Source: Ulota crispa (Eukaryota > Streptophyta > Bryopsida > Orthotrichales > Orthotrichaceae). Taken from it: 64,000 nt of DNA. Each line of letters begins with the position of its first letter. The stretch's first letter is position 1. The DNA lies in NCBI GenBank assembly GCA_963920765.1, contig OY987245.1, forward strand, positions 13,780,727 through 13,844,726, in the 5' to 3' direction. Position numbers and translations under genes: made by a program. The notes under the pieces were generated by a model, which searched no databases, was not told where the DNA came from, and saw nothing but the letters and a program-made list of their open reading frames with translations. This document shows, in pieces, positions 23,838-57,628 of the stretch.

Positions 23838-23861
23838 ACTCAAAGTTGAATTACGTCTTTA

Positions 23862-33296: not shown

Positions 33297-33399
33297 TGTT
33301 GTGTAAAGCAAAATTGCTAAATAAAATAGATTGAGAGTTCCAATCCTACCATAAAATGAAAAACAAATTAAACTATCAGTATATACAATACAGCTTCAA
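33297..33399. repeat. Direct repeat flanking LTR-like block, outer copy
   Basis: About 100 bp (TTGTGTAAAGCAAAATTGCT, CCAATCCTACCATAAAATGA, TATATACAATACAGCTTCAAG) that recur at 33,704-33,803 with a few substitutions. The two copies bracket the 33,400-33,701 block. The origin is unclear: tandem duplication, or a rearranged LTR. Confidence 0.7.
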
Positions 33400-33701
33400 G
33401 GATTAGGTTCTAATTCATTAGAAGTTAAGCGTCTTGCACACCACCAAAGGAAAATCAACAAGTGCAAAATGGTAGAGAAATAGAAAGCTTCACTAATGAT
33501 AAAACATCACTTACAAGCAAAGACAATCACTAAAAACTCTAAACTCACTTACAAGGCTTGACTTGACAAAGAGAGTCAAGTCAAGGATTTGTGTGTACTA
33601 CATGTACACATCAAATCCTAATGGATGAAATTAATCTATTGGATGAATGTCTACGCAAGCACCACAATGCGGAGAGGCTCTCGACGTCACATCCCGTGAC
33701 A
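33400..33701 (-). repeat. Candidate 3' LTR of E1
   Basis: About 300 bp highly similar to 60,610-60,894 in the same orientation (shared GTCTTGCACACCAC, AATGGTAGAGAAATA, ATGATAAAACATCACTTACA, GAGAGTCAA, CCCGTGA). It lies about 140 bp beyond the C-terminal end of E1's pol, where a 3' LTR should be. Read on the minus strand it begins TGTCACGGGA; the other copy ends TAATCA, giving near TG...CA ends. No convincing primer-binding site, polypurine tract or target duplication was found, so an unrelated dispersed repeat remains possible. Confidence 0.45.
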
Positions 33702-33703
33702 AA

Positions 33704-33803
33704 TGTTGTGTAAAGCAAGATCGCTAAACAAAACAGATGGAGAATCCCAATCCTATCATAAAATGAAAACCAAATTGAAATATCCGTATATACAATACAG
33801 CCT
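33704..33803. repeat. Direct repeat flanking LTR-like block, inner copy
   Basis: Counterpart of 33,297-33,399; lies between the LTR-like block and the end of E1's coding region. Confidence 0.7.
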
Positions 33804-33843
33804 CAAGTGCCCCTCCTAGTGGATAAAGAGACCTTTTATCTGG

Positions 33844-34121: not shown

Positions 34122-34325
34122 TCAAGTTGGTGCACCAGGTGAAACAAAACTTGAAGATCTACAACATTGAGGACAAGTCCAATCTCCAGATGGTTGAGTA
34201 GAAAGAGGTGGCGTCAAGCAAGCCATATGCCATCCACGTTGGTAACGGTCATATAATAACATGGTGGCCGCACCTTTCTTCTCACCGCATACAAAACATG
34301 AGAGGCCTTCAAGCACAACGGCCAA
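34122..34325 (-). pseudogene. E1 PHD finger after integrase
   Basis: The Cys/His pattern of a PHD zinc finger is clear: C-x2-C (CFVC), eleven residues, two ligand positions occupied by Tyr (LLYDRYQRGWH), His, x2, Cys (WHMAC), fourteen residues, then C-x2-C (CPQC). Spacing is exactly C4HC3, and the conserved GWH, CL and GDW residues are present. The two Tyr codons (TAT, TAC) are one G-to-A step from Cys codons. PHD fingers bind histone H3 tails, so this probably targeted the integration complex or the methyltransferase to chromatin, as chromodomains do in chromoviruses. It is in the same frame as the integrase C-terminus, separated by one TGA. Confidence 0.8.
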
Positions 34326-34337
34326 CTTAGGGTGAAC

Positions 34338-34670
34338 TCAGCCGTCAGTAGGTAAATGACATGGGGCGCAATTCTTGGAGTGCTTCCGACACTCCCGGCC
34401 ATCTTTGCCTTCCAACAACAAAATACCACTAGGTAACACATCCTTCACACAAAAAATGGTGCGCCCTGTCTTGACGTCCAATGTCGTGGGTGCCTCACGC
34501 TGTAGATAAACGTAATCTCTAATTGTAAAACATTGTAGTTGAGGCCGGTAGGCTCCGCTATGAATACGTGCATACCGCAGCGTGACGCGGTGTTGAGTAA
34601 TAGATAAGTTTTCCATGGCCATTGGCATGGCGCATTTGAAGAACTCTGCTTGGTCACGGAAACATTGAGC
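34338..34670 (-). pseudogene. E1 integrase C-terminal region
   Basis: Follows the catalytic core. Contains a segment (FTIRDYVYLQREAP, then VKDVLPSGILLLEGKDG) typical of the basic/SH3-like C-terminal domain of gypsy integrases, where 'GDxVxL' is usual. A Cys/His-rich segment (ECRKHSKNCAPCH) precedes the stop, TGA, after which the same frame enters the PHD finger. I infer one continuous ancestral polyprotein. Confidence 0.7.
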
Positions 34671-35450
34671 CTACATCTCTAGATCATCCAAATCCACCAC
34701 TAGAGTCAACTTCTCCCTTACAAAGCTGAGTAAAATTGGCTCATGTCCGTATGACAATTGATATGGACTGAAAGTAGCCAATGAAACTTGTCTGGTAAAC
34801 TTATATTCCATAGCGATCCATGGTATCATCAAGTCCCAGTCACGTTGGCCGCCCTGAAGTAATCTATACTTTTGCAGGCCATGCTTGACTGTCTGAACCA
34901 CACGCTCTACCAACCCATTTGCTTCTGGATGATCCCAAGAAGAAGTATGGTGATCAATCAAAGCTTTGGTGCGCAAAGCTTCAAAAGCCCCAAGGAACTC
35001 ACGTCTCTGGTCTGTCAGCATCTCAGTTGGAGTTCCAAATCTAGCCAACACCTAGTCTATGAATGCCATGGCTGCCAACTCCAAAGAGTTTTGCGGTAGC
35101 GCCACAAGCTCAATCCACTTGCTAAAGTGCTCCACCATCACCAACACATACTTGGCTCCTTGTGGTGTAACAACAAGTGGTCCGGCAAAATCCAAGGACC
35201 AACAGCAGCCCAACCCCATGATGGGTAAAGGCTACAACTGCAGTGATAGAGTGTTGAAGTTGGATCTAACCCAATCACACACTTCACACCGTGAAACAAT
35301 ATGTGGTGACGTGTTGATACATGCCGGTCCACCAGTATTGGCTGCGCAACATGGAATGAGTCCGTTGCACACCAAAATGTTCAAGGTCTTTGTGTATTTG
35401 CTGTACCAACGAAGCCCTCTGATCTGGCCTAGGAACTATGCGCCTAGTCC
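34671..35450 (-). pseudogene. E1 integrase catalytic core
   Basis: The zinc-binding part (HxxxxHFG...H, WWTGMYQHV, then CxxC in a shifted frame near 35,270-35,400) precedes the core. The first catalytic Asp is in WSLDFAG (about 35,183-35,206). The second is in LTDQRREF and the Glu in HPEANGLVERVVQTVK (residues 14 and 49 of the 126-codon frame ending at 34,671), 34 residues apart, so the DDE triad is intact. The usual GREF Gly is Arg here. Integrase inserts the cDNA into the genome. At least one frameshift and two stops separate the zinc and core parts. Confidence 0.85.
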
Positions 35451-35457
35451 TATTTGG

Positions 35458-36390
35458 TCACAATAAAAATAAAAGGCCGTTCTCCCAACAGAACTTTGCC
35501 ACCTGATATCGAACTTGATCTTGCTCCATAACTGAAAGAGCTGGTGGAAGTGCCCCATGTTGTAGCTTGTGCAAGACTGGTATATCTTCCCACACATTGC
35601 TAACAACTTGAGCCTTGATTGGCTCTTCATTGATTGCCTGATATGGGAGCAAAGATGCTGATCCAGACATCAAAGTGAGGTAGGTGGCTACATGCCACCC
35701 TGGAACTGACTCCATGTCAAAGTCCCCATGCCACCTAACACCAGTCAAATCTTCCTCTGAAGGACTTGGATTGCGAGAAAGATCATCTGCATCCAAGTTT
35801 GTGATGTCAGCTCGGTGTACAATGTCAAAGTCATTTTCCTGGAGCAATAAAGTCTACCTGGCAAGCTTGCTAGTAAGCTTGTCAAACTCCATGAGCCACT
35901 TCAGAGGCTGGTGGTCGGTCACTAAAGTGAATCATTGACAATACAAGTAAAGCCGGAAGTGCACAATGGCCTAAATTGCCGCCAAAGCCTCTCCCTCATA
36001 AGAGGAATAATTGGACTCCGCGTTGTTGTTGCTTCTAGAAGCAAAAGCCCCAACATACTCACGTCCTTCCTCATCCTTCTATGTCAACATAGCTCCCAGT
36101 CCTACAACACTCCAATTTGTGTGCAATCGAAAGGACCGCGTAGCATCTGGGCATTGTAGTACAGGCGCTGAACCAAGCTTCAGCTTCAAAGTAGCAATTG
36201 CCTGCTATTGCTCTGGTCCCCATGTCCATGGTTGATCCTTCCCTGTGAGAATAGTCAACGGCTTAGCAATCAAGCTAAATTTCTTGACAAACCAGCTATA
36301 GTAATTAGCAAAGTCAAGAAAAGCTTGAAGCCGCGATACGTTGGTTGGGGTTGGAATCTCTTGCAGCGCATCTACCTTAGCCTGTTGCAC
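35458..36390 (-). pseudogene. E1 RNase H and connection region
   Basis: The connection region (LQAFLDFANYYSWFVKKFS, LTGKDQPWTWG) is at 36,205-36,390. RNase H landmarks follow in alternating frames: AESNYSSYEGEALA, then TDHQPLKWLMEF near 35,890, and the end DADDLSRNP near 35,790. RNase H removes the RNA strand from the cDNA hybrid. Several stops interrupt it. Order and spacing match gypsy pol. Confidence 0.8.
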
Positions 36391-37253
36391 ACCAAGACCT
36401 CATGGAACAATCATGTGCCCCTAATATGGTAACCGATTGTGGAAGAACTTGCACTTGCCATGATGCAAGCTTAATCCTCACTGTTGTAATCTGTCAAACA
36501 TTGCCTAAAGATGCTTCACATGCTCATGAGGGCTGCTACTAAAGATGATAATATCATCATTGTAACAACAAGCAAATGGAAGACCGATCAACACCGGGTC
36601 CATCACCCTTTGAAATTTGACACTTCCATTCTTGAGTCCAAATGGGAGAAACTTCTAATGATAAAGCTGATCTCTCCCATCTTGATCAGCTTCCTAGAAT
36701 GCTGTCTTCACTCGGTCATCCACCATCAATGGTAATTGGTAATAACCAGATTGTAAATCTAGAGTACTAAATACTCTAGCATGTCCCACGGCATCCAACA
36801 ACTCCTCCGACGTGGGCATGGAGTACTGGTCCAATTTGATCTTGCGATTGACTGGTCAATAATCCCCACACATCCGTTTCTTTGTCCAGTTGCCAAAGAT
36901 AGACTCTTTGAAGGCATAATTGTGGTACAAGCGTACTCTCCGTTGGAGAGCTCAATCAAGCTAGCGGCTAACAATTCTTGACATTGAGTCTGAAACTTAG
37001 CTTTTTCTTAAAGACTCAGCTTGTACAATCGTCGGAAGATAGGGTGGTCATCTTCTAACTGAATGTGAATTGGTTTGCCCTTATAGCCTTCCAAATTATG
37101 GAGGCTGGAGTCAAAACAGCTATAATACAAACGTATAAATGCTTGTACCATTTGTGCTTTGGCATCGATAAGATATGGTCCTAAATTCAATGCCCAATCA
37201 TCAAACTTTGTGGTTTCCTTCTCCACCGCTGGAGAACCATCGCATACCGACAC
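36391..37253 (-). pseudogene. E1 reverse transcriptase
   Basis: Starts with a block (LEGYKGKPIHIQLEDDHPI, near 37,070) that precedes the polymerase in gypsy elements. Further blocks in shifting frames are ELSNGEYACTTIMPSK, DLQSGYYQLPLM (near 36,750) and LPFGLKNGSVKFQRVM. The catalytic motif reads YNDD (36,553-36,564), followed by IIIFSSS; the x position is Asn rather than the usual Ile, Val or Leu, but both Asp remain. Multiple frameshifts make it inactive. Confidence 0.85.
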
Positions 37254-37559
37254 GGTTGGTGATTGCTACTTGGTAGTAGAGATGGCATTCATGCTCCTAG
37301 ACTCCTCACTCATGGGAGTAAAAAAAAACCCCGTATCAAGATGATAGACTCATGGAATTAAGTCTTGGGCTTCATCTTGTCTGAAATCCTTGGCAAAAGC
37401 AGCAAAGATATACTGAGCTCAAAGCTCCTCTGACGCAAGCCTCTCCAAACGAAAAAGTACCTCCGCCTCCTTAATCTTGGTGGAATGTGGCACCGTTGCC
37501 CTTTGACCATCAAAGTTTGCCTCCAGCACACGTGGACGGTTACGCTGATGATGTTGAAT

Positions 37560-38880
37560 GACAAAGCAGAGGCTAGAAATCCAAACTAGGGTGTTGAAGT
37601 CAATAGCATGATCCAACAAGAAACGACGCTGATTCTTAGAAAGATCTGGTGCGGCGGTGGTACTAGTCAAAAAGCCCATCTCGTGCTTTCGTTCGTCGGC
37701 TGAAGGCTTGTCATAAATCTGGGCAGTACTATTTCAAATCAAGCTTGGACCTCCTGATCAAAAGACAAAGGATGCTGAGTAACACATCGATGTGGGTACT
37801 GCCCTCCGAGGAAAGCCTACGCGGTTCACCAAGGTTAATGGAGACTCATTATCTTTGGTGACTTTTGTGGAGACACAATGATCATCCAAAATGTCATCAA
37901 CCTTGCGGTGAATGGGTCGTAGCACTTGAACTAGTGTAGAGGTGAGTATCGTCAAAGGGGCCAAGCTGGTCCAAATCCATTTTGGCCAATGGGCGTATGA
38001 GCCCAACCTGGCGGCATTAACAAATGTAGGAGGACCAAGAAGGTGATGGACGTATGCACCATCTTCACGCACCTTCACTCGTGTGTCACCCAATGGAGGT
38101 ACATTCTCAAAAATGTACCTGGGTGGCAAAGATTGGTGGGTAATCCACCACTGGATGAGCATGAGTAGATCTGCAAAAAATGATGACCTCGAATCATCTA
38201 ATCAACTTTCGTTGTCTGCTCGTGAATGGCCTTGGCAAGGCCAACTGGCAATCACTAGATCCATGTGGCCTAGCCGTCGGAGATCATCTTTACTAATAAG
38301 TGTGACATCTCTTGGCAACTTGCCGAAACATCCATGGATAGTAGAAGGTGGAAGCTGCTCAGGATATAACGCCAACAAACGATATATGTGGTGGTGAGCG
38401 GCACGATTGGCTGCAAAGCCACTATTGACATGGATGTATTGCCGCACCTTGCTCCCGGCCTCTAACAAAACATTTGTCAATCCTATACCAATGCCGGCAA
38501 AGAGCTCGACAAGAGTAATGCCATGGTCTAGTAGATGCCACTGAATAGTGCAGGCCAACAACGGCGTGGAAGAATCCACAAGGAATTGAAGAACATCAAG
38601 AGCATCCACAATTTTTCAACTACGACGAGTAAGCTCCAACTGAGTTTCTCATGGTGAAAACAGATCCTTACAATGGCGTGCAGGGATCTCCACCAGTGCA
38701 TGCTCACGTGATTCCTTGAGTGCTGATATAAATGCATATGTCTCATCCAAAAGCATAGAACCACATGGCAAATTAGATGCCAAAGTAGTCCATCCAAACA
38801 TAGCCTTTGCTATAGAGGTCACTACGCTAGTTGCAAACGTAACAGGAATGAGCTCCTTGCTACCATCGCAAATAGACCAC
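37560..38880 (-). pseudogene. E1 cytosine-5 DNA methyltransferase domain
   Basis: Motif I (ELFAGIGIG, at about 38,480-38,510) is the AdoMet-binding loop. Motif IV (SWPCQGHSRA; catalytic Cys codon 38,235-38,237) is the nucleophile site, with Trp where Pro is usual. Motif VI is the ENV triplet (FENVPPLG, 38,100-38,108). A motif VIII-like segment (AARLGSYAHWPKWIW) follows, then a C-terminal part (ERKHEMGF, TTAAPDLSKNQRRFLLDHAID, near 37,600-37,690) like the late motifs. About 350 residues of domain, which is full length for a catalytic core. The frame is continuous from about 38,880 to 37,758 across three stops, all TGA, and shifts once before the final part. In life it would methylate cytosine in DNA. 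It sits between protease and reverse transcriptase. Confidence 0.85.
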
Positions 38881-39459
38881 CCTGGCCTAATCCATATCTC
38901 CTCTCTCTAGTTATCCATACAAAAATCAAGTGGGTATAGTGCTTGCTAGCCCACAAAATGTTGTAATTGGTGGCACCAGTTACAACGCACTGGAGAGATA
39001 CATGGGAAAACAATGGACTCAATCCTACACTGAACATCAATTGTAATGGATGTCATGTATAATCCATAACCTTCTCTATGCCCCCAATTGATGTGATAAT
39101 GGTGAAGGGGCAAGGCTCAAGATCAACAGCATCAAACCCAAATCTTGGGCTAATTGTTTGTCGATTGTGACTGGTTGAGCCCTAGAATCAAGTATAATTT
39201 GTAAAAGAGTGGCTTGTCTAGAGTTGCCATTGGTACAACCAACTACCATAACTCTATCATCATTCACTAAACATGTTATCCCTAGACGCAAGTTGTGTCT
39301 TTCTAGGGCAAAACGGGCCGCAACGTCGGACAAATAAGCCACTACGGATGACTGCATAATAGATGTCGCTGGGGCATTGGCCTCAAATGCAAAAATAGCC
39401 TCTGCCGCCAATTTGGCCCGCATGGCCAGCAAATCCTCTTTGGTGGGTGGAGCCGTCAC
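38822..39459 (-). pseudogene. E1 aspartic protease
   Basis: Retropepsin-like: the active-site region reads LLQIILDSRAQPV (residues 85-97 of the frame at 39,076-39,459), with Arg where the catalytic triad Asp-Ser/Thr-Gly has Gly. About 90 residues on, in a shifted frame, ATNYNIL corresponds to the conserved 'YDILLG'-type block. The protease cleaves the gag-pol polyprotein. The Gly loss and the frameshift indicate an inactive copy. Confidence 0.7.
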
Positions 39460-39462: not shown

Positions 39463-39789
39463 CTACAACACCTTCAATGATGGGATATGTACTTTGCCCT
39501 CCAACATACTCATTGCCAAATGAAACACATTGAATGGTTGAAAATCGTGTGTCATGAAGTCCACTCCAACAGACATATGAAATTGCAACAACTTATATGC
39601 CAAAGTGTGTGGGGCATTCCTTTGAGTGGAGGAAATCTGTGAAGCAGAGGGCGGAAGAAGAGTGGCACTAGAAGTAGTCGCATCTACAATGTTGAAAGAT
39701 AGAAGTAACCGAGATTGCTCAATGTGATCTGGCAACCCTATGTTTTGCTGACGCCTGCCATTATTGACAAGCGTCAAAAAAGGTGCCAC
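39463..39789 (-). pseudogene. E1 gag-protease linker
   Basis: A 108-codon frame between the zinc-knuckle frame and the protease frame. It has a Ser/Thr/Pro-rich segment and no recognised motif. By position it is the gag-protease linker of the polyprotein. Confidence 0.45.
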
Positions 39790-40024
39790 CGTCTATGCAG
39801 TGGTTTGAGCGCGAGTGATTCCCCCCTGCCACAACTTGCTATAAGGCGCCATATAAATAGGCATCCATGGCGGAAGATGAACCATAGCTCTTCACTAGAG
39901 CTCGTGCGTCCGCCATTTGCCCCAAAGATGCCATTGCGCTCATCTTCTTCTTCAGCTCTGCAATTTTGGCTTGTATTGTCTTCACCTCATCTATTCTAAG
40001 AGTTGTCGAATCCGTAGCAGAAGA

Positions 40025-41280
40025 TCATAGGCTCTTATCTGGATGAAGAATAAAGCAAGTCTCCTTGCTATGGCCAGATTTGCCACAGTGAGAACATACT
40101 ATAAGCTTTTTTCCCTTGCCCCCAATCTTGTAGCCAGACTTTGTTGCCTCAGATTTGGATGCCTCAATCTTGGGTTTAGCCTTTGCCACACTTGCATCCT
40201 TCTTCTTAGAGCATTTTGAGTCTCCTTTGGCATGGCCAGCTTCTCCACAAGCCCAACAGTACACAACCCTTTTAGGTTCTGCCTCTGCCAAGCTGCTAGT
40301 TGCGGTAGCAAGCTTTTTAGGCTTGGGAGTGTCCATCATGGTTGTGGCTAAAACCATGGTGTTCCTTATACCAAGAGCTCTGTCCAGCTCTTCTACCTTG
40401 GCAAAAACTTCTGCCAAAGTTTCGTTGCCATGATAGCAGAAGAGAAGACGCGCGTCAAGCATGTCTACCATCCACTTATCCAATTGGAAGAGGTAAATGT
40501 ATGTCAGCTGATGCTGCATGAATATATTGCCAGCCTCTGCTGCCAACCTTGCTAATCAAGTATACATGGTGCGATGAGTATCTTCTTTCTAATGGCGGAA
40601 TTCCTCGATGCGTTGCATGTGATCCAGTCGGAATTTTCCATACTCTACCTCCAAATGCGCTAAGAAAAGCATTAGAGGATCGAATGTTGGTGGATGACTA
40701 ACTTCTACTAATGCCACCCCTGTGGCTTGGGCCAAATGTGACATGATTTCTATGCTAGGCCGTTTACCACTGAAAGCCCCTTTTTCTGTCTTAATCTGAT
40801 CTGTAACAATAGAAATTCGACCAACTGCAATTTCTTTAAGAGCAGTCACCAACTCCATCTGGTCGCGCCAATAATCCTCCACTAGGCACAACTGCTCTGT
40901 GTGTCGTGTAGTCCATGACTCATAGGTCTGAAGAGTCTCTAGCTCCAAATATTGGGATATAAGTTCAAATGTATACCAATTGTTGAACGACGGAGTCTGC
41001 TGATACTTCTCCTTTACTCATGTGTAGAATCGGAGTCTCTAATTAGGTAGAAAGATGCCCGCCCGTCTTGAGAAACGGTCTTGCACAACATGGCAATGAT
41101 CGTCCTCCATGTTGTCAAACATGCCAATAGTCTAAATCCAAAGCCTACAATTGGTATCCAACGTCGAAACATGCTCAAAAGCCTTGTTGGTATCCAATCC
41201 TGACCCAAAGTATGAAACAGAAGCATCCTCTGGATAGTCTGGTAATGGGGAGCGGTAGTACCGATTCCTCGTGCTCACCA
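40025..41280 (-). pseudogene. E1 gag with two zinc knuckles
   Basis: Starts at ATG 41,278-41,280 and is read in three fragments (41,014-41,280; 40,589-40,948; 40,025-40,546) separated by stops. The first two are capsid-like (RSPLPDYPEDASVSYF; YGKFRLDHMQRIEEF). The last carries a nucleocapsid with two CCHC knuckles: CWACGEAGHAKGDSKC (residues 97-112, one spacing longer than usual) and the canonical CSHCGKSGHSKETC (151-164), joined by a Lys/Ala-rich linker. Gag packages the RNA in virus-like particles. Confidence 0.8.
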
Positions 41281-41588
41281 TAAACAAACTATTGCATATC
41301 TACAACTATATAGAGGTTAAAGATAACCTAATTTGTAATCACCACCAATCTCTGTAGTTCACTAGTGATAAATTTTGGCTTATACGTATCCAAAATATAC
41401 AAAAAAGTCACATTGGCAATCAATCCAACTTCACCTTTACGGTATGCCCACCACCAAACAACCCAAAACAAGACATTGTCCGCATGCAGGGAAGACACCA
41501 ATTAACAAAATCCAACAATAAAAACTGGATTCTTTTCCCTAATAACATAAAAGCAGAAATAAAGAGGGCTAACTCTAGTAGCACACGC
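41281..41588 (-). other. Upstream of E1 gag, 5' leader remnant
   Basis: About 300 bp between the gag ATG and the LTR of E3. No reading frame or LTR was recognised; by position it should be E1's leader, cut off by the E3 insertion. Confidence 0.4.
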
Positions 41589-43749
41589 TGTCCTGATGGA
41601 AATGCCTCCATCATATAGATACACGTTATTTATCTATGTTTATGTTGGTTTCAATAAATCAACAGTCGAGGCAAAATGGATGGTTGTAGTGAGAACCACG
41701 GTTTGATAACAGCACAGCAGCCACAGATTCTAAGGTACTACGCCGTCTTATCTTATGTACAGCTCAGGGAGGTAAGTAGCGGATTGGTTGAGCCAATTTC
41801 CTACCTCACTAGCGTGCCAAGCCGTGGGCCGCCATGGTCGCTTGACGAGTCCAATTGGATTTGAACTTGGACCGGCGGACGGCCAAAGACAAATGCTTCT
41901 CCAGCTAACCAAGTCAACGACTTAGCAACTGAAGACACATGTTTGACGTTATTATATGCTTATAAGAGCACGTGGCCACTTTACAGAGGTATTTATCTTG
42001 TATTTATTCCGTTTTTATATGTTTATCTACATGTTTTGGAGGGCTCATACATTTTACCTTTGTTTGAATAAAATTACTAATGATTTAGAAGTGAATTCAA
42101 AAAAATATAAAATGAAAAAAAGTTTGGCATCTATGATTTGATTAGGATAGAGAGGAGTATGAACTGATGTGCCTCACTTCCATATCTTGGATATGATTGA
42201 AATGTAAGAGGGGAGATTCTTTAATATATTAGAGTTCTAGTATATGAGTGTTGGTTGAAAGAAGAGGAAAAATCCAAAATTTTGATATGCGAGAACTTTT
42301 GTGTATACAATATTTTATAGTGGAATTCAAATGAGTTATTTCTTGTATTATAACCTTTCTGAAATGAGTTAGCAGATTTGATTTGGAGTTGAGATGAAAA
42401 AGCTGTAAGTGTTTGAATTTTGGAGTCAAAAAACAAAACTATGAAGAAAGGCTAAGACTTTGACAAACTATAGCTTACAATTTATATATCATTCTGCAAC
42501 ATGATTTTGAAAAGGTTTTCATTTCAATCTTATCTTTTTGGAAATTCATTAAACTCGTGATTTGGAGCTTAGAAGAGAAAGTTATGGAGGTGCAAAAGAT
42601 TGAAGATGGCAGCTTTTTGTTAGGAAAAAGCCGATACTTTGAGAAGCTACAACTTTTGGATAGTATAAAACTTTCTTCTAAAATTTTTTAGCTGTATTAA
42701 ATTATTTTCATAGCTTTTTAATTGTCATTAATTGTTTTATTTAGAGTTTTATTGAGAAAGTTATAGCATGTAGAAGATGGAAGTTTGGATGCTCTCTCAA
42801 AAATTGAGACCCAAACTTTGATTCACTAAAGCTTACGAACAGAGTTTTAGTTTGTAAAAAAAATTCTAGAGATTGTAGTCAGTTGTTTTGTCTTTTCAAA
42901 TTGGTATCATTTTTGTTTGTGAGAGTCATATATAAAAAATTATAGAATTTTGAAGAGGCAGTGATTTATTTGCAAGGAGGGAGAAGAGCCTCCACTTTGA
43001 ATCCGCATCACTTTTGGACGGTAACTTAGATTGAATTGAAATTTAGAGGGATGTTAAAAGGTTAGAAAGGCTTTCAAAAAAGCTATTACATTTAACATTT
43101 GGATCTTTGAGCCATCTATGGCACTAGATAGAAGGTCAAAGTCTTTCTAAGATTTGTTGATTGTGATTTTCTCATTGTTTTTTTAAAACATAAAAACTTG
43201 AAGACTTGAAGACATGAAGACTTGAAGACATAAAAACTTGAAGATTTCAAGATGAATATTTTAGATTTATTTCTTATGTATGTATAGGATGTAGCTTTGT
43301 TATTCCTAGCCGGTTTTAGAGGTTCGTTTATCAATATATTTTTATTATGTTTTGTAAACTTTGTTGCGGGTAGTTTGGGTTAAATCAAACTTAATTCCAT
43401 TTATTTTTGTGGTGACAAAGTGGAATGATCATCCACATGGTAGAGACTTGTTATATTCTCATGGTTTTGAGTTTTGTGTAGTAGATTGTGAATTTGATTG
43501 TAGGGTTCTATCATATGGACGGCAACTTGTGTCTACTGTCCCAATCTATCCATCCCGTATCTAGTGGGCTTTTATCTCTCTACCTTGACCTTATACCACT
43601 AGAGCCAACCATAAAACTGGTCAACGGAAGACAAAACACTAAAGATTTGAAAAGTGAAGATCAAAACCGTCAACATTTCCTAATTAGTGACGCACAATCG
43701 CAGCTAGACACCCCACGTGTTCTCAAGGCGCGCTCATCTCTACCCGAAA
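41589..43749 (+). mobile_element. E3 5' LTR
   Basis: About 2.16 kb, beginning TGTCCTGATGGAAATGCC and ending near TCTCTACCCGAAA. It matches 57,629-59,767 in direct orientation and 47,164-49,324 in reverse. The long LTR includes a purine-rich minisatellite of (GAC)TTGAAGA(CAT) units at about 43,195-43,252. Short frames inside are not conserved among the three copies. LTRs carry the promoter and polyadenylation signals, which I cannot place precisely. Confidence 0.85.
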
Positions 43750-43799
43750 TTTAGTGCTTCCATTGAAAGAGCTTTAAGACAATTTCTGCGTTTGTTAAC

Positions 43800-44590
43800 A
43801 TGAGAGACAATAGCGAGGCTTTTGGCGACAGTACTAGTGGTGCTGGTGCAACTGATTTGTCTTAAGAAGTTTCAAGCACCATTACCAGAGGCGTTGATGG
43901 TCTTCAATTGCCGATGGGAGATCTCTTAGGAGCATTGGCCATTTTCATGGAGCAACATCAAATCAATCATGGTGGCCAAGTAGCCACCGAAGCGTTGAAA
44001 GCTGTTGTTGTAAAGACTGGTAGGTTTGACTGTAAGAACATAACCAAATTCTTGCAAATCTACATTTTTGATATGGAGGTGCATCAAGTTGATGAGAATC
44101 AAATGATAGCTATTTTTGACATGATAGTTATATTTGACATTTGTGATCGCGTGCACGAGATCTGCAAAAGGGTTCACAACTGGATCGCTTTTGCTAAGCA
44201 TTTATGTGACGAGTGCTTTGACGAGGACACAAAAATGATGTCTGAGCGATTTTTTCTTGAGTAGGTAGAGCAGTAGCTAGGAGACAACATGAGTGCTCGT
44301 AAGCTGCTAAAGAACTTCAAGAAGAAGTTTGCCCAGTTATCCATGATAGAGAGATGCTTTTTCAACCATAGGAAGGTAGAACTCTTTCTTCAAGCACCTG
44401 ATGCTGCATTGGATGATAGACTTCTTCTACTTTTTGGAGATTGCACGATAGAAAGTGGTTTTACCAACAATTGGAGGAGGATAAAAGAGATAGTGAATTT
44501 TTTGGGTAAATAGCAACGTGTGAGGTCAAGAGGACTTAGAGCAAGAGTGGACACCGATCTAATTTCAGCTCTAAAAAGTCCTAAAATATC
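43800..44590 (+). pseudogene. E3 gag, N-terminal part
   Basis: The ATG at 43,800-43,802 follows the 5' LTR by 50 bp. The frame is broken after about 20 codons by TAA. It then continues with protein-like sequence (KTGRFDCKNITKFLQIY; MSARKLLKNFKKKFAQLS; DDRLLLLFGDC), helical and charged as in capsid domains. It runs straight into the E2 LTR at 44,591, and the same reading frame resumes at 52,221 once E2 and one ATATC copy are removed. Structural protein of the particle. Confidence 0.65.
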
Positions 44591-44822
44591 TGTAAGAGTA
44601 TAGATGTCAAAACAAACATATACTACTAAGTAAAATATAATATTGATCCAGAAATTAAGTTTACAATGAATAAGTGTTTACTTATATATTAATCTTTGTT
44701 TAGCTTTTACTTTAACTAACTAAAAATAAAAGTTCTTTTACTTTAAGTTCTATCTTTGAACTGAAGTTATCTTAGACTAGCAAGTGTACATCTGAGCTTC
44801 TAACTAGGCTTAGCCCATGACA
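44591..44822 (-). mobile_element. E2 3' LTR (left copy)
   Basis: 232 bp, TGTAAGAGTATAG...CCCATGACA on the plus strand. It is flanked on the outside by ATATC (44,586-44,590), which recurs at 52,221-52,225. By eye it differs from the right copy at about 11 positions, all but one transitions. Compact LTRs for a gypsy element. Confidence 0.93.
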
Positions 44823-44869
44823 TATGCCTCTTCCTCTTCTTTTGTAACTAAGAATGGAAGAGAAGATCT

Positions 44870-46182
44870 GCCCAAGGAACAACTAAACCTGCATTGCGCA
44901 AGGAGCGTTCATAATCATCCAAGGCCACTGCATCTTGCAAATGACGTAATGGTTCCCAAGTGGGCTCGGGTCAGCCAAGTCATTTCACAAGTAATTGCCA
45001 ACTACGTCCTTGGCGCCGATGTCGCAATACCCGTTCAACTGCGTACTTGCCGTCATTATCAGTTGGGGCATCTGAAGGATCTAGTGGATTGTGCAAAACA
45101 ATACCAGGCTCATTATCATGTGCCAATTGAGAAGGCAAATGATCCGCTCTTGCCTTCTTAACCAAACTCACATGGAAAACATGATGAATACCGGGAGGAG
45201 TATTCAAACGAACCGCATGTGTACCAACACATTCAAGCATGCGATAAAGAAGGGCAATCCAATCGAGCTTCTTGATCGGCCGTGTTGTATTGATGTTCTT
45301 CAATTTCAACCAGACACGGTCACCTGGACGGAAGACTTCGGCCACGGAACGTCGTACGTTAGATTGACGTTCTTGATTTTCTTGCACAATCGCCATTGCT
45401 GTTTTTGCCATATCAGTACTATGACTCCATTGCTCAACAAGCTTACGTCCCTTCTCCGCCGGTGATAAGGAAGATCCTTGCTCCTTAGGTATGGTAAAAT
45501 CCATGAGAGATTGATGAAAGCCGTGAGTCATAAAAAATGCTGACATACCTGTGGACTGTGTCACCTGATTATTCAATGCCATCATTGCTATTGGCAACTG
45601 AAGAGCCCAATTGTCTTGTTCAAATGCAGTGAAGATGCGAAGGTATGTCTCAAGCTCTTGATTGGCACGCTCCGTTGCACCATCCGTCTCTGGATGAAAG
45701 GCTGTTGACAATCTCCGTGTGATCCTCAGCAATCGGCACACTTCTCCCCACATCATACTCACAAATTGACTTCCGCGGTCGAAAACGATTGCGGTTGGTA
45801 GTCCATGATGTTGAAAAACTTGCTCTAAGAGTTTTTGGGCCACATCAATAGCACGAATTTCCTTCATTGGCACAGCAATGATGGATTTGGACAAACGGTC
45901 CGTTACAACTAAGATATTTGTATAAGTGTTACTTGGTGCCAAGCCGGTAATAAAGTCGATAGAAAGTTCCGTCCATATCCGTGCGGGAATTGGTAAAGGT
46001 TTTAATAAACCTTGCTTTTGTTCACGCCAAATCTTAGATTTTCCACAGACATTACAATTTTGTACAAATCTTCGAACGTCTTGAGTCATTCTAGGCCACG
46101 TATATTCGCGTGCGAGCAAGTCTCGTGTTCCTTTACGATATGGATGTCCAGCCAATGGTGAGTCATGAATAGACTGAATCAA
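44870..46182 (-). pseudogene. E2 integrase with C-terminal chromodomain
   Basis: Zinc-binding HHCC part: IHDSPLAGHPYRKG, then NCNVCGKSK. Catalytic core: Asp in ELSIDFITGL, Asp in VFDRGSQFVS, Glu in PETDGATERANQELE, all intact. The C-terminal domain has RPGDRVWLKLKNINTTRP and TPPGIHHVFHVSLVKKA, the 'GPY/F'-type region of chromoviruses. A chromodomain begins at DGKYAVERVLRHRRQG...LLVK and is broken at 44,980 by TGA and again three codons later; the frame beyond reads PTWEPLRHLQDA, the end of a chromodomain. Both stops sit where Trp (TGG) is conserved. The chromodomain would bind methylated histone H3 and steer integration to heterochromatin. Confidence 0.92.
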
Positions 46183-47163
46183 CCGCGTTTGAAGTGGTTC
46201 GTATGCCGGTATCCATATTCGTCCACGCCAACGTAGTCAATGGGCTCCATCTACAGAGCATTCACTAATTGTAATCAGTAGGCCCCATTCTTTTGGTGGT
46301 CGGTGTTCGCCATCCATAACAGCCTTTTGCATCTTCCAATATCGATGATTTGTTTTGAATCCTGCATCCCACAATGCAATCATCTCTGCGTCTGCAAATG
46401 GACATATGGGACGTGGTGTCATCATTGACTCCGTAGCCGCGATTACCTTTTCCGAATCCGCATCGCCATCTTTTATCCATGCGGATTTTGCAACCACTTT
46501 CAAAGTGTTACCATCTCCTTCTAATAGTTGATGATGTCGGTTCATGATCCGATCATCATTCATATCGTTGGGAGTGTCTTGTTTGCGACGGGAAAGTGCA
46601 TCTGATTGAGCTTGCTCTCTTTCAGGTTTATGCACTATCTCAAAGCTAAAGTCATTCAACTCATAAGCCCAATGCATTTGCCGCTCTTCCAAATGTTGCT
46701 TCTTTTGGAAATAAGCCAAATTACGATGGTTCGACCATACCTCAAAATGTTGTCCAGCAAGCTCCGTACGCCATTCACGAATGCAACAAATAACTGCTAA
46801 TATCTCCTTGTCATGAATTGGATAGTTAGATTCGGCTGAACTGTGTTTTTTTGAAAAATAAACAACCGCGTGCCAAAGTTCATCCACCTTCTGCATCAAA
46901 GTGCCACCAACCGCATATCCAGAGGAATCACATTCAATTGCCGTTTCCAATCCTGGGGTCCATTTTGCTAATACTGGTGCATTTACCAAAGCTTCCTTCA
47001 ACCGATCAAATGCAAGTTGACAATCTGATGTCCAATTGAAAGATTGGTCTTTTCGCGTTAATCGAGTAAGTGGTTCTGCAATATTTGCGTATCCATCTAT
47101 AAATTGTCGATAATAATTGCAAAAGCTCAAAAAACCACGGACTCCTTTCACCTTCTTTAGCGG
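46183..47163 (-). pseudogene. E2 RNase H and connection, 3' part of RT
   Basis: After the solo LTR the frame resumes with KGVRGFLSFCNYYRQFIDGY (connection) and NWTSDCQLAFDRLKEAL. RNase H residues follow: ECDSSGYAVGG, DKEILAVICCIREWR and SNHRNL (Asn where TDH is usual), ending DALSRR. One TGA at 46,237-46,239 (probably former TGG) separates it from the in-frame integrase start. It removes RNA from the hybrid during cDNA synthesis. Confidence 0.88.
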
Positions 47164-49324
47164 TGTCGGGTGAAGAGGGGCGCGCCTTGGGAACACGCAG
47201 GGTGTCTTGCTGCGATCGTGCGTTGCCGACTGAAAACGTTGTCAATCTTGATTTTCTCTTCAAATCTTCAGTCTTTAGTCTTCCATTGGCCTATCCTGTG
47301 GCTGGCTCTAAGGGTATAAGGGTCAAGGTAGGGATAAGAGCCCACTGGATACGGGACGGGTAGATCGGGACAGCAGACACGAGCTGCCGTCCGTATGACG
47401 GGATCCTAAAATCAAATTCACGATCTGCTGGCCAAAACTCCAGATCGTGAGAACAGAGCAAGTCTCGACCATGTGGGTGATCAATCCCACTTCGTCACCA
47501 CGACAATAAATGGGGTTAAGTTTGGTTTAACCCAAACTGCCCGCAACAAGGTTTACAAAACAGAATGGAAATGAATTGACAAACGAGCCTCCAAAACCGG
47601 CTAGGAATAACAAAGCCACATCCCACACATACAAAAAAAATAAACCCAAAACATTCCTCTTGAAATCTTCATATCTTCAGATCTTCAAGTCTTCATGTCT
47701 TCAAGTCTTCAAGTCTTCATGTTTTAATAAAAACAATGGGGAAAATCACAAATAACAAGTCCTAGAAAAGGCAGTAACCTTCTATCTAATGCCACAGATG
47801 GCTCAAAGATTCAAATGCTAAGTGTAATAGCAATTTGAAAAGCTCTCCTAACCTTCTAACATCCCTCCAAATTTCAACTCAATCTAAGATACTGTCCAAA
47901 AGTTATGCGAGTTCAAAGTAGAGGCTCTTCTTCCTCTTTACAAACTAAACACTGCCTCTAAAAAACCTCTATAACTTTTGTTCTATACATCACCCATAGA
48001 AACGTAATATCAATTTAGAAAGATGATATCACTGGCTTCAATCCATAAAATTTGCACTTCAAAACAAAACTTTGTCCGAAAGCTCTAGTCAATCAAAGTG
48101 TGGGTCTCAATTTTTTAGAGAGCACCCAAAACCGCAACTTCTATCCACTATAACTTCTTCAATAAAACTCCAAATGAAATGATTAAAGACAATTTGAAAA
48201 GCTATGACAACAAACTATCACTCCTAAAATTTTGAGAAGAAAATCTCATACTGTCCAAAAGTTGTAGCTCTTCAAAGTCTCGGCTTTCTCCTAACAAAAG
48301 GACAGCCACCTCCAAACCTTCACACTTCCATAACTTTCTCGTCCAAGCTTCAAACTTCAAGTTTAAAGACTTTCTAGAAAGCCAATACTAAGATAAACAC
48401 TCTCTCCAAATCTTGTTGCAAAATGATATACAGATCATAAGTTATCGCTTGTCGAAGTCTCAGCCTTTCTTCATAGTTTGGCTTTTTGACTCCAAAATTC
48501 AAACACTCATAACTTTTGCATCACAACTCCAAATCAAACTTGCAAACTCATTTTGGAAAGGTAATCACACAAGGAACAACCTCCTCAAATTTCAATTCAA
48601 AATCACGTATACACAGAAAAAAATCTCCCATCAAAGTTTCGGGATTTTTCCCCTTCTTCTCACCAACACTCATACACTAACTTCCAACAACTAAGGGATC
48701 TTTCCTCCACAATTTCGACCCTATCTAAGGTAGGGAGGTGGGGCACATCAGCCCATGCTCCTCCTTATCCTAACCCCACCATAGATGCCAAAACCCTTTT
48801 CCTTTCACACCTTTCCCATTGACTTCTAAATCCTTAGTATTTTTATTCAAACAAAGGCAAAATATATGAGCCTTCCAAAATCTCTAGATAAACATATGAA
48901 AATGATTAAATTACAAAATAAACACCATCGTAAAATGGCCACGTGCTCTTGCGAGCATATAATAGCGTCAAACGCTTGTCTTCAGTTGCCAAGTCGTGGA
49001 CTTGGTTGGCTGGAAAAGCGGTCGTTTCTGGCCGCCCGCCGGTCCGGGTTCGAATCCCATCGAACTCGTCGAGCGGTGATGGCGGCTCACGGCTTGGCAG
49101 CTAGTGAGGCAGGAAATTGGCCCAGCCAACCCGCTACCTACCCCCCTGAGCTGTGCATGTGACAAGACGGCGCAGCGCATTGGAATCTATGGCCGCTGCG
49201 CTGTCACCAAATCGTGGTCCTCACCACGACCACCCCTTTTGCCTCAACTGTTGATTTATTGAAATCAACACAAACATAAAGAAATAACAGCTATTTACAT
49301 GATGGAGGGAAGTCCATCAGGACA
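47164..49324 (-). mobile_element. Solo LTR of E3 family inside E2 pol
   Basis: About 2.16 kb, reverse orientation to the E3 LTRs and homologous along its whole length. It is flanked by GCGG on both sides (47,160-47,163 and 49,325-49,328), or AGCGG if the last base of the LTR is counted in. E2's reverse transcriptase reads up to it on one side and the connection region continues on the other. A single LTR with a target duplication means LTR-LTR recombination removed the internal part. It is less decayed and GC-richer than the E3 LTRs. Confidence 0.92.
49047..49057 (+). promoter_or_regulatory. tRNA B-box-like sequence in the LTR
   Basis: GGTTCGAATCC matches the Pol III B-box consensus GGTTCGANNCC. 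About 35 bp upstream, TGGTTGGCTGGAAAAGCGG loosely resembles an A box. It lies on the strand opposite to LTR transcription. The T stem pairs only partly, so it is not a functional tRNA gene. In the older E3 LTRs the same site has decayed (complement AGTTCAAATCC at about 41,850). Confidence 0.4.
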
Positions 49325-50111
49325 GCGGCTCCCATTTCTGAATGGCTTCAAGTTTCTTCGGGTCAGCCCGCAATCCCTTACCAGTTTCTACCAGATATTC
49401 AAGATACTTAATGCTACTAGCTTCAAATTCACTTTTATCAAAATCAAGTTGAAGCCCTGCGTCAGCAAGTTTACGAATGATCCTAAGCACATTGTCGCGG
49501 TGTTCTTTTTGTGTATCACTATAAATGACCACGTCATCTATATATGCAAAACTACATACATCTAGTTCATCTCGAAGTACCCAGTTGATGTATCGCTGAA
49601 ATGTTGCGGGTGCACCAGTGAGCCCAAATGGCGTGACTAGCCATTCGTATAGACTAAAACGTGTGTTGAACGCCGTCTTCCACTCATCACCTTCTTTGAC
49701 TCGTATTCAATGAAATGCAGAGATGACATCAACCTTCAAGATGTACTTGGCTGTAGCAATAGTCCTCAATATCTCGTCAATGCGCGGGATCGGATAGTTG
49801 TCCTTTTGATTTATTTCGTTCAATCGACAATAATCAACACAAAATCGTAATCCTCCACCAGGTTTCTTAACAAATATCACTGGGGCTGCTGCAGGCGAAT
49901 TGCTTACACAAATGAAGCCATTGTCCAATAATTCCGTAAGAATCTTGCGTAGTATTAATAGCTGATCCTTGGACATTTGGTATAATGGCATTGCAGGGAT
50001 GTCGTCGTTGGTCTTCCTTTCAACAAGATTGATTTCGTGATCGACCCCTTTCCTGTGTGGCGGCAACGACTTCGCGTCTTGCCGATCGAAGGCATCAATA
50101 ACTGGCATCAA
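49325..50111 (-). pseudogene. E2 reverse transcriptase
   Basis: Palm and finger motifs appear in order: ELLDNGFICVSNSPAAAPVI, FVKKPGGGLRFCVDYCRLNE, YPIPRIDEIL, then WLVTPFGLTGAPATFQRYIN and the catalytic AYIDDVVIYSD (YIDD codons at 49,533-49,544). One TGA at about 49,709 (from CGA by C-to-T) breaks an otherwise continuous frame shared with the protease upstream. The solo LTR cuts it after LEAIQKWE. Copies the element RNA into cDNA. Confidence 0.92.
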
Positions 50112-50690
50112 TTAGTCTGGAGCATATTGCGCAGGATCCTTGTACACCTTTTGTTGGAGCGCCTTCTGAATGTCAACCAAGCTAGCAGTAAAAATCTGTA
50201 CAGGTTCATCGCTAGTTTGCAAAGTCCGGATTGTTGCTGCTTGTGTTTCCCGAATTGGTTCCAATATAATGGGTCGAGTCTTGACAATCATCTTGAAAGG
50301 CTTCCGAATGCAAACCTCATCTTTAGCAGGTCGAATGCTAGCGTCATGTCGCTCCATCCAGCCTTTTCCAAAGATGACATCATCAATTTGTCCGGGAATA
50401 ACATATGCAACAATCCTTTCTTCTATATTGTTGATATCAACTTTAAATGTTGCTATGCGTTGAATCATAGATTGCTCCTTTATGATTGTAACTTGTTCGA
50501 GGGGTCTTGGTTTGATTGGTGTAGAATCTAATCTGTTTTTCTTAACAAATTGCTCAGACACGGTTGCAAAGCATTGGCATCCAGAGTCGCATAAAGCACG
50601 AGTGGATAAAATTGAATTGATCAAAATATCAATGTACATACCATTCGTGTCAAGATTCTTATGTGAACGCCAACTTTTCAACTTCAACAA
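50112..50690 (-). pseudogene. E2 protease and pol N-terminus
   Basis: The retropepsin active site reads ALCDSGCQCF (Asp-Ser-Gly intact), with a later VIFGKGWMERHDA block corresponding to the 'ILG' region. About 192 codons, ending at TAA (one C-to-T step from CAA) and continuing in the same frame as the reverse transcriptase. The frame is open upstream across the end of gag, overlapping it by about 20 nt in the -1 frame. It has no ATG of its own at the start, consistent with translation by -1 frameshifting. Confidence 0.85.
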
Positions 50691-50728
50691 CTTGCCTACA
50701 CGCTTTTGACTGAGTTTTTTGCCGGAAG

Positions 50729-51823
50729 CTACTCGTTTTCCAACTCCTTTTCAGAGTCAGAAGTCTCCACCTCTTTGACCTCCTTTATGACAACATTACT
50801 CTTCTTTTTTATTGCGCGCACCTTCGTGGTCTTCTCCACGTCTTCTTTTTTAATCTTTTCTTCAGCATCATTCTTCTTTGACGAACAATCGTTTGCGCGG
50901 TGGCCATGCTTCAAACATAAAAAGCATCAACCTTCCTGTTGGCACTTTTCTTGTTCATCCGGCGTCAGGCATCTTCGAAGCTTTCCTACTTGAATGGTAG
51001 GCGTCCAATCCATCTCATCTCCACCGGGCCACACGTGATTTGTTGTTGCCATTGGAGATGCACGGCCTTTCTGATATTGAAGGCAATCGAGTTGAGAACC
51101 AACTACCAACAAAGCCTACACAAAAGTGCCGTAATGAACATACGTGACGGGCCCGATCATTGCGCGTTGCATCTCCACGTTGAGAGCACCTCAAAGATAT
51201 CTAATTTTCACCATGTCAGGAACCATGGTAAGCTGACTTTCACCAAGCTCTTTCTCAAACTTGGGCAAAAAAGTTGCAAACAATTCTTTGCTTTGCTTCA
51301 TTGCCTGAAGCCTATTCAACGCCCGCGCCGCTGCATTTGGGTCGATAAAAACGCTGTCAAGATGCTGAACAAAAGTTCTTGCATCACAGCCCGGTTGGTT
51401 TTGATAGAATGATGCTATCATTAACTGCGCTTTTGCCTCCATTCTAGTGAACAAATACGCCGCTTGGTCTTGGAGTGTCACAAGTACTACCCCATCAATT
51501 CGAAGCTTGTTATCAACTTCGACCTTCCACATCGGATAGCTCTTCCGACTACCATCGAATTTCAAGATGTCCGGCAATTGTTTACGCAACACAGGAGCAG
51601 TAACTTCATACTGCTATTGTTGCAAAGATTGCGGCATCATCTGTGACAAAGATGGACCTCCTAATTGCTTTTCAGCTTTTTGTGAAGCAGCAAGTTCTGA
51701 ACGCAACCTCATAATCTCCCGTCGATAGTCCTCCTCCGTATATTTTTTTTGCTGCTGCTGCTGCAAGATCTCCTCGTTGGAAAGCGCGTTGTCCCCCATC
51801 TCCAAAAAATAGACATGCTTCAA
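50729..51823 (-). pseudogene. E2 gag
   Basis: One frame of about 364 codons with four stops (two TAG, two TGA), each reachable by a single transition. It starts near 51,823; the first clear ATG is MGDNALSNEEILQQQQQ at about 51,801. The capsid part contains LPDILKFDGSRKSYPMWKVE, YLFTRMEAKAQLMI and DPNAAARALNRLQAMKQ, the retrotransposon gag fold of fungal-type chromoviruses. The nucleocapsid has a canonical CCHC knuckle CFLCLKHGHRANDC (50,885-50,924), then a Lys/Glu-rich tail. Confidence 0.85.
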
Positions 51824-51988
51824 TCAACGTCTTTAAGCTTTGCAAAGCTTACCTTTGCGTCCCAGTTCTGTAGTCGTCTCCTATCGTTACTACGAAGGTG
51901 GATAAAGTCCTCAATCAACTCGTCCAAGTTTTGCCGTTTGAAAAGCAAAGGTGGATTAAGCCCTTTCAGAGAGCGAATTTCTGGATTA
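51824..51988 (-). other. E2 leader next to 5' LTR
   Basis: About 165 bp between the 5' LTR and gag. Right after the LTR, the minus strand reads TAATCCAGAAATTCGCTC where the primer-binding site should be. It does not match the initiator-Met complement (TGGTATCAGAG), so the primer tRNA is unknown. Confidence 0.5.
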
Positions 51989-52220
51989 TGTAAGAGTATA
52001 GATGTCAAAACAAACATTTACTACTGAGTAAAATATAATATTGATCTAGAAATTAAGTTTACAATGAATAAGTGTTTACTTATATATTAATCTCTGTCTA
52101 GCTTTTACTTTAACTAACTAAAAATAAAAGTTCTTTTACTTTAAGTTCTATCTTTGAACTGAAGTTATTTTAGACTAACGAGTGTACATCTGAGTTTCTA
52201 ACTGGACTTAGCCCATGACA
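51989..52220 (-). mobile_element. E2 5' LTR (right copy)
   Basis: 232 bp, same termini as the left copy and the same length; followed by the ATATC duplication at 52,221-52,225. About 95% identical to the left LTR by eye. Confidence 0.93.
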
Positions 52221-53430
52221 ATATCTTTTCCTCCAAAATCTTCAACAACCCCAAGGTCTATCTTGAAGACCACTAAGAACAACAAAGACAACGCTCTTGA
52301 TGAACTCATCAAGAGTTTTCAAGAGCTAAAGGTAGAGTTTATCAAGTTGAAAAAGTCTCAGGCATCTAACTTTTTTTCTTCGTCACAGCCATCTGATGGA
52401 GGAAAGACATTCCCTTGGAAATGTATATGGCATGGCAAGAGCAAGCAAGATGGCAAGCATCGTCTTGGAGACTACAAAGAGTGTATCGAAGCCTTGAAAG
52501 ATGGCATTGTCAAATTCATTGACGACAAGCTTCATGATTCATCCATAAAAGCGCCATTGAAGACCAATATTGGCAGATGAGGGATGATGAAGCTTGTGGA
52601 GGGAAAGATGGAATGATCTAGTTCCATACATGTGCGCGAGGCTGATTCATACCACATTGAGGTAGAGCAACACTCGATTGAAGCCTCACTTGCTCAAAGA
52701 GCTACGCTGATGAAACAAGATGCCCAAGTCGTCAGAAATGTAATTGAATGAGAAGATCCAGTTGATGCAAGCAGCATTAAAGCATTTTTAGAGAATGATC
52801 AAGCCAACGTTGATCACTATGAGGCTTCAGTTGAAAAGAAGAATGGGAGAGGTGAAGTTGAAGATGGTGAAGAGCGTTTATTAAAGAAGAAGGCTCAAGC
52901 GCAGAAAGATTCTGCAAATGAGTTGAAGCGCAGAGTTTAAACGCGCTCAAAGACACAAAGTCCAAGCTTTGTGCATCCCAAAGATGATTCACTTTTTAAT
53001 AGAGACTGAAGACAATCTAGCGACAGTGGAAGAAGCCATGAGAAAGAAAACTCCGGTAAATTAAAAAAGAAGAGCCCTATTTACAAGCTCCAGTCTAATT
53101 TTGAGACTTCAATTGACATGAAGGGAGTATTGGAGGAGAGGATCTTAGATGCCAAGATCTAGTTTGCATTGAGGGAAGCACTTGGCATAGCTAGGAAAGA
53201 CTGCTATGAGCTGATCATCAATATCATCAAGCAAAAGAGACAAATGATAATAGAGACTGTGATGGTGAGTGCTTTGGACATTCACATAACCATCGATGAA
53301 GAAGTTGAGATTGGCGAAGTTTTTATTATGATAGGAGACCATGAGACTCAATGCGATACAGTCACACTTACAGAGTTCGGCAAAAAAAAAGCTAGAGAAG
53401 GTGCAGTGTTCAAGTGCAAATGCTAATGAA
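52221..53430 (+). pseudogene. E3 gag, C-terminal part
   Basis: Resumes the gag frame after E2 (FPPKSSTTPRSILKTTKNNK; LKVEFIKLKKSQASNFF). It contains CIWHGKSKQDGKHRLGDYKEC, a Cys/His segment that may be a zinc knuckle or its remnant, then Lys/Glu-rich coiled-coil-like sequence (LLKKKAQAQKDSANELKRR). Frequent stops. The stretch at 53,169-53,426 (ALGIARKDCYELIINIIKQK) belongs to the region between gag and protease. Confidence 0.6.
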
Positions 53431-53549
53431 GCGAAAGTTTAGACATTTGATGATGCAGTTTTAAAAGTTGAAGCTAAGACCTTTGAGTTCAGCTGTGATC
53501 ATTTTATTGATGGATTTTAAGATGTCGAGACTAAGTTTCAGCTGTCACA

Positions 53550-56232: not shown

Positions 56233-56339
56233 GTACATCGAAGCTGCAAGAAGGCTGGACAGACAAGACATTTGAAGACATCAGACATCAGACATCAGTC
56301 CTATGGATATCTTTTGAGAGAAGGATTTCTATAGAAGAG

Positions 56340-57530: not shown

Positions 57531-57628
57531 AAGAGTTGAAGATTTGGAAGATGCAGAAGACAACTAAGATATTGAAGATAAACAAATTTGGCACATACTG
57601 GAGAATGTGCAGGTTTAGAGATGATACA

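Follow-up and report, generated by a model that had tools for sequence, protein, structure and literature searches.

The window analysed here, a 64,000-nucleotide stretch of the Ulota crispa genome whose positions serve as coordinates throughout, contains a Ty3/gypsy-type retroelement (E1) with a putative DNA methyltransferase (DNMT). A single minus-strand frame (38,906-37,269) exhibits motif I (VELFAGIGIG), motif IV with its cysteine (SWPCQGHSRA), motif VI (FENV) and the later motifs, in the order characteristic of C5 methyltransferases (I, IV PCQ, VI ENV, VIII, IX-X). This confirms the motifs listed in a preliminary description of the locus. Seven TGA codons interrupt the frame, and three of these lie within the catalytic domain. 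From profile searches, frame reading and relatives, the DNMT3-like region was delimited to 37,350-38,906 (minus strand), with the catalytic part at about 38,519-37,560. A lone 135-aa piece of the window sequence matches the Pfam DNA_methylase profile (PF00145) weakly (15.5 bits, E-value = 0.012, cut-off 22), and three further pieces of the same frame (37,761-38,201, 37,422-37,733 and 38,652-38,906) exhibit no Pfam match. In a whole-genome profile search reading across one stop, the same place scores 26.4 bits, above the cut-off, so that the C5-family assignment stands. Of the eight open-frame relatives scanned, seven reach 41.7-49.1 bits; the one without a match (P0013) lacks motif IV. The low score of the lone piece is what could be cited for a chance resemblance or an assembly artefact. 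Against this, the 275-Mb Ulota genome exhibits at least 96 matches to the 135-aa piece (a lower bound, in which at least five copies are nevertheless counted as two pieces), which corresponds to about 90 copies beyond E1; relatives occur in several sequence collections and the architecture is conserved. This explanation is vanishingly improbable and can be regarded as already refuted. On sequence grounds the frame is a predicted cytosine-5 DNMT located between a protease and a reverse transcriptase (RT).

The flanking domains agree with the placement originally proposed, the protease region lying at 39,459-39,076 and the two RVT_1 pieces at 36,855-36,508. E1 was compared with an open reference, the 9,285-bp contig CADCWO010000201.1 (L068). 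Its two ends are identical over 127 bp, and it is therefore circular in its assembly. The alignment between E1 and L068 is unbroken from 40,757 to 33,424 (76.5%, 7,429 columns), as is that between E1 and another copy from the same genome (41,589-33,711, 82.9%, 7,886 columns). Both alignments cover gag, protease, DNMT, RT, integrase and PHD finger as a contiguous block. The DNMT is therefore part of E1 and not a separate insertion. Both open reading frames (ORFs) of L068 are open. ORF1 encodes an aspartic protease, weakly matched, and a DNA_methylase domain; ORF2 encodes RT, RNase H, H2C2, core integrase and PHD finger. The order RVT_1-RNase H-H2C2-rve in ORF2 is that of Ty3/gypsy elements (Metaviridae), and the best PDB match of ORF2 is the Ty3 Gag-Pol polyprotein (E-value = 6.7 × 10-100), in agreement with the carrier type first suggested. 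A Pfam scan of ORF2 at E-value≤0.01 listed the PHD finger and no chromodomain, so that the element does not classify as a chromovirus; in the scan of both L068 ORFs the rve integrase was listed and no tyrosine recombinase.

The remaining parts of E1 are decayed, and all lie on the minus strand. The gag region (39,463-41,299), recognised by alignment to L068 gag, gives an E-value of 0.0015 with PF00098, just under the cut-off, and contains two zinc-knuckle-like Cys/His motifs within 40,025-40,546. The aspartic protease region (39,076-39,459), identified by frame reading, exhibits LDSRAQ instead of LDSGAQ; the homologous stretch of L068 matches Asp_protease_2 below the cut-off (E-value = 7.8 × 10-4, 20.5 bits). 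The RT and RNase H region (35,850-37,265) gives RVT_1 scores of 36.8 and 18.1 bits on its two pieces and has its counterpart in L068. The integrase (H2C2 and core, 34,341-35,457) exhibits a weak rve_3 match (E-value = 0.023), its L068 counterpart matching Integrase_H2C2 and rve. At its C-terminal end the integrase ORF carries a PHD finger (34,125-34,337; PF00628, E-value = 2.1 × 10-8, 34.5 bits). Part of the leader is found at 59,773-60,164, with an 80.8% match to the leader of a copy on C3. The 5' end of E1 lies 18 kb away from the rest because another LTR (long terminal repeat) element, itself with more nested insertions and not belonging to E1, occupies the leader (41,586-59,770).

By profile and predicted fold the relatives are closest to DNMT3, these scores being those of the relatives and not of the window copy. 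Their motifs are not rearranged as in DRM. A first AlphaFold model of the relative P0001, built from 11 rows, was poor (pLDDT 42.9) and was not used. In a tree of 178 columns, from which three rows with a missing motif were left out, the element DNMTs fall together with DNMT3/DRM, apart from bacterial rows, MET1 and CMT (98/100), and the program flags long branches that meet. The tree check proposed at the outset suggests at most a DNMT3/DRM grouping: a topology test rejects neither a union with the two bacterial rows (p-AU, the approximately unbiased test, 0.112) nor one with plant DNMT3 alone (0.115). The DNMT is accordingly nearest to DNMT3 as far as profile, modelled fold and this long-branched tree indicate.

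The window copy is dead: with seven TGA codons its frame supports no activity, and the suggestion that it might methylate DNA is not upheld for this copy. The check for intact copies found a stop-free DNMT stretch in 0 of the 41 copies examined, that of the window included. The possibility that the TGA codons are private to E1 was rejected, since several are common to other copies. Where a single C-to-T or G-to-A change would create a stop, stops are found in 234 of 1,430 cells, against 191 of 20,279 at other codons, and transition changes in E1 amount to 0.31 at L068 CpG sites against 0.18 at other C/G positions. Both are consistent with loss of methylated cytosine, whichever enzyme methylated it. 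Elements from different sources exhibit few amino-acid relative to silent changes: the ratio of nonsynonymous to synonymous divergence (dN/dS) between L068 and the window copy is 0.20 for the DNMT, 0.11 for RT-RNase H, 0.10 for the integrase and 0.18 for the protease, rough values given a dS near 0.7-1.3. Among nine copies of the Ulota genome the DNMT ratio is 0.55 (median of 36 pairs), as expected of dead copies decaying after insertion.

The retention of catalytic residues bears on whether the domain is instead an RNA (tRNA-type) methyltransferase or a non-catalytic nucleic-acid-binding part of Gag. The glutamate of ENV is kept in 31 of 41 decayed copies and the motif VIII arginine in 12-15 of 38, which would suit such a function, as would the behaviour of the related KnitGypsy-Dnmt3 enzyme from the alga Klebsormidium nitens, which produced no methylation in yeast, a result that its authors call inconclusive (PMC5890265, available part of the text). 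Yet the motif IV cysteine is retained in 37 of the 41 copies, the ENV glutamate (E134) is invariant across a 54-row alignment, and the match to the DNMT2 profile is far weaker than that to DNMT3 (4.3 × 10-4 vs 4.9 × 10-20). We regard this alternative as quite unlikely and retain a DNA methyltransferase of DNMT3 type.

DNMT and RT appear to belong to separate ORFs. At 37,266-37,268 (minus strand), as placed by the L068 alignment, E1 exhibits an in-frame TAG followed by CAATCA. The two ORFs of L068 share one frame and are separated solely by TAG and CAATCA. In tobacco mosaic virus (TMV), readthrough requires the six bases CAR YYA after UAG; it reaches about 10% in vivo and 32% in a reporter (PMC2754532, available part of the text). 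A stop followed by CAR YYR occurs at the same in-frame position in 31 of 38 distinct places of the Ulota genome in which the RT side could be anchored (28 TAG, 3 TAA; 29 with strict YYA), a set that includes a near-identical inverted pair (L017/L018). In the other seven the stop is shifted by one base (three), located elsewhere (one) or missing (three). CAR YYA is kept after the stop in two subfamilies despite different codons (TCA, CCA, CTA), and five source proteins terminate at the same residues.

Further in-frame stops recur among the copies, in as many as 21 of 38 at a single column, and a shared position is therefore no proof of a functional stop; the case for one rests on L068, on the source proteins ending there and on the six conserved bases. 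The stop might alternatively be an inherited nonsense mutation of defective elements, the active ones having DNMT and RT in one frame. The sharing of other stops speaks for this, as does the Marchantia gene model P0105, which joins DNMT and RT in one protein. P0105 is, however, a predicted model with residues missing at the very join, and an inherited nonsense mutation is difficult to reconcile with the two long open ORFs of L068, with the five protein ends and with a hexanucleotide context maintained through different codons. We find it very unlikely and prefer a gag-protease-DNMT ORF closing at a conserved UAG of putatively leaky type. As the last domain of this ORF the DNMT would be made in Gag-like amounts and not at the lower level of Pol. 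If the stop leaks, DNMT output would follow that of Gag and protease, with less RT, integrase and PHD finger being made. The initial proposal of synthesis within a polyprotein is thereby corrected: the DNMT does not share one ORF with RT.

In tobamoviruses the leaky stop, likewise UAG followed by CAR YYA, lies within the replicase (PMC2754532). In the E1 lineage the candidate leaky stop ends a retroelement ORF of gag, protease and DNMT. RIRE2, which like the E1 lineage is a plant gypsy element with candidate stop readthrough, is not known to possess a DNMT. RIRE2, from rice, has been named as a readthrough candidate (PMC2754532).

The terminal repeats of E1 are arranged as a1-coding-b1-a2-b2, that is, as the split direct repeats of DIRS-type retrotransposons, and not as identical LTRs at both ends as in Ty3/gypsy elements. 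All are on the minus strand. Repeat a1 (60,605-60,896; own-genome match 13841331-13841622) is the 5' terminus and starts with TATCACGGGA, where other copies have TGTCAC. At the 3' side lie b1 (33,704-33,807), a2 (33,396-33,703, defined by repeat comparison and own-genome matches) and b2 (33,297-33,400), which ends the element with ACAACA. A G-rich polypurine tract directly precedes b1, and two variable bases separate b1 from a2. Identity is 87.5% between b1 and b2 and 80.4% between a1 and a2 over 311 columns; the 20% divergence of the a repeats (Jukes-Cantor distance 0.23) indicates an old insertion. Searching the Ulota genome with b1-a2-b2 gave five nearly full matches; upstream of each, in the same orientation, lies an a1 copy, with a DNMT match in the interval. 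The same order of repeats is present in L042, a copy of a second subfamily (a1/a2 88.6% over 352 columns, b1/b2 82% over 107). The elements start with TGTCAC and finish with (G/A)ACA. With end patterns set by hand after inspection of the copies, at least three of four bases of a 4-bp target duplication agree in eight of nine elements, and all four in three; the window copy exhibits no duplication (one of four bases). One copy (C3:31.13 Mb) is reduced to a1-coding-b and another (C6:2.198 Mb) to a lone a-b, forms expected from recombination between a or b repeats.

DIRS elements employ a tyrosine recombinase and are not known to generate target duplications, unlike the E1 lineage with its integrase and 4-bp duplications. 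A pattern for the plant initiator-tRNA primer site was not found in the window, and the primer site is therefore presumed from its position after a1. The sequence between the polypurine tract and this presumed site is b-NN-a. Reverse transcription would copy b-NN-a as the LTR, yet integrated copies start with a and finish with b (TGTCAC...GACA, 4-bp duplication). With a circular intermediate, the integrase would cut a two-LTR circle within its LTR unit, at the near-palindromic junction GACA-NN-TGTC. A lineage in which a leaky stop like that of tobamoviruses sets DNMT3 synthesis at the Gag level, and which integrates by way of a circular or permuted DNA form, is a tentative and rather doubtful proposal; if true, a DIRS-like route would be taken with a DDE integrase.

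Elements of this kind are already known from Klebsormidium and Symbiodinium, as the preliminary description had noted. KnitGypsy-Dnmt3 resembles the E1 lineage, by published description, in its Gypsy domains, its DNMT3-related DNMT in the coding region, its DIRS-like repeats and the purifying selection on its DNMT (de Mendoza et al. 2018, PMC5890265). It differs in that the DNMT is said to belong to the Pol ORF (PMC5890265), whereas that of the E1 lineage closes the gag-protease-DNMT ORF before the conserved stop in leaky context. The available text of that article does not contain the words moss, PHD or readthrough. SymbioDIRS-Dnmt3 and SymbioLINE-Dnmt of Symbiodinium are likewise DNMT-bearing retroelements, and the SymbioDIRS enzymes perform de novo CG methylation in yeast (PMC5890265); these elements are DIRS with a tyrosine recombinase, or LINE, in contrast to the DDE integrase of the E1 lineage. 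A 2025 paper citing the 2018 work mentions DNMT3 members in retrotransposons "in streptophytes and dinoflagellates" (PMC12344493, available part). In the open-licence literature, of which our coverage was limited, we found no description of a DNMT-bearing retrotransposon of mosses or liverworts.

The DNMT part of the Marchantia protein P0043 is matched by 58 proteins (among the 7,991 scored candidates sharing most words). The named relatives are from Marchantia polymorpha, Calypogeia fissa (two), Sphagnum troendelagicum and Sphagnum fallax, which bears out the anticipated extension to land plants; many others are metagenome proteins, and one partial match is from the alga Monoraphidium neglectum. 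No Klebsormidium sequence was identified among the matches, and a scan of viral contigs yielded seven stretches matching a pattern, none confirmed. Four metagenome gypsy elements (P0140, P0141, P0145, P0147) have gypsy pol, a PHD finger and DNMTs in one clade with the bryophyte rows (91/87). They differ from the E1 lineage in that the DNMT lies between RNase H and integrase, followed by PHD, in one protein without a stop; P0140 also has a Tudor domain. Because some relatives carry it there, the DNMT has either changed place or been taken up twice. Apparently new are the occurrence of such elements in land plants and their number there, the stop of leaky type, by which the DNMT would be made at the Gag level, the PHD finger, and the combination of split repeats and target duplications of 4 bp.

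We consider it likely that E1 is the dead remnant of an old insertion and belongs to a bryophyte Ty3/gypsy-type lineage that took up a DNMT3-type cytosine methyltransferase long ago, a confidence that applies jointly to this reading of E1 and the mechanism proposed below, not to the parts. The lack of any stop-free copy among those examined, the dN/dS within the Ulota genome, the other shared stops, the missing target duplication of E1 and the yeast result with KnitGypsy-Dnmt3 weigh against it. In the proposed mechanism most ribosomes would halt at the UAG. Gag, protease and DNMT would be produced jointly, in large amounts, and be packaged, whereas readthrough would give rise to RT, integrase and PHD finger. 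The probable role of the DNMT would be to methylate the element's own DNA (cDNA or new copies), in the particle, close to it, or once the new locus is reached. A new insertion would then be quiet at once and less harmful to the host, and the PHD finger would read a histone tail and steer integration into suitable chromatin.

The enzyme might instead act on the host, a Gag-level DNMT changing the methylation of the host, for instance through competition with host silencing or through its saturation. The DNMT3 type, the expression level suggested by the stop, and the DRM, plant-type DNMT3, MET1 and CMT genes of the host genome, with which it could interfere, are compatible with this, but the Klebsormidium methylome resembles that of land plants (PMC5890265), and we judge such a role unlikely. 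DNA methylation being the standard plant defence against transposons, a constrained de novo methyltransferase of an element's own raises the question of self-silencing on arrival. Marchantia, with its genetics and annotated relatives, makes this testable, Klebsormidium and Symbiodinium less easily. The stop context predicts a measurable quantity, the DNMT made per RT, and split repeats with target duplications raise the question of how an integrase inserts a permuted element. The lineage extends to land plants an element kind described before in an alga and dinoflagellates.

Several minor observations were made. The LTR element within the E1 leader has 2.16-kb repeats at 57,629-59,770 and 41,586-43,747 (minus strand). 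Inverted 2.16-kb arms (41.6-43.7 and 47.2-49.3 kb) were considered as LTRs of E1 and rejected, as they belong to another family, pairs of which lie 8.4 kb apart elsewhere (40 matches scored out of 1,030 candidates). A second gypsy element (minus strand, 51,613-44,983) is split by a solo 2.16-kb LTR (47,166-49,327), which, judged by eye, seems to have a 4-bp duplication (GCGG). No tRNA was found in a scan of the window. Two long overlapping minus-strand frames, 18,728-22,426 (1,233 aa) and 22,407-23,858 (484 aa), exhibit no Pfam match at E-value≤0.01. Plant-like retroelement sequences are filed under bacterial metagenome-assembled genomes, L068 under a cyanobacterium and P0003 under Candidatus Obscuribacterales; from its likeness to plant elements, L068 is probably a stray plant sequence. 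L017 and L018 (C3, 32.75 and 32.77 Mb), which have equal match scores and point in opposite directions at a distance of 20 kb, probably result from an inverted segmental duplication. The PsaB sequence of the Ulota genome has as its closest PDB chains 8htu, 6l35 and 7ksq, all from Physcomitrium, which agrees with a moss host. Many psaA/psaB fragments are present on the Ulota chromosomes, outside the plastid contig C157.
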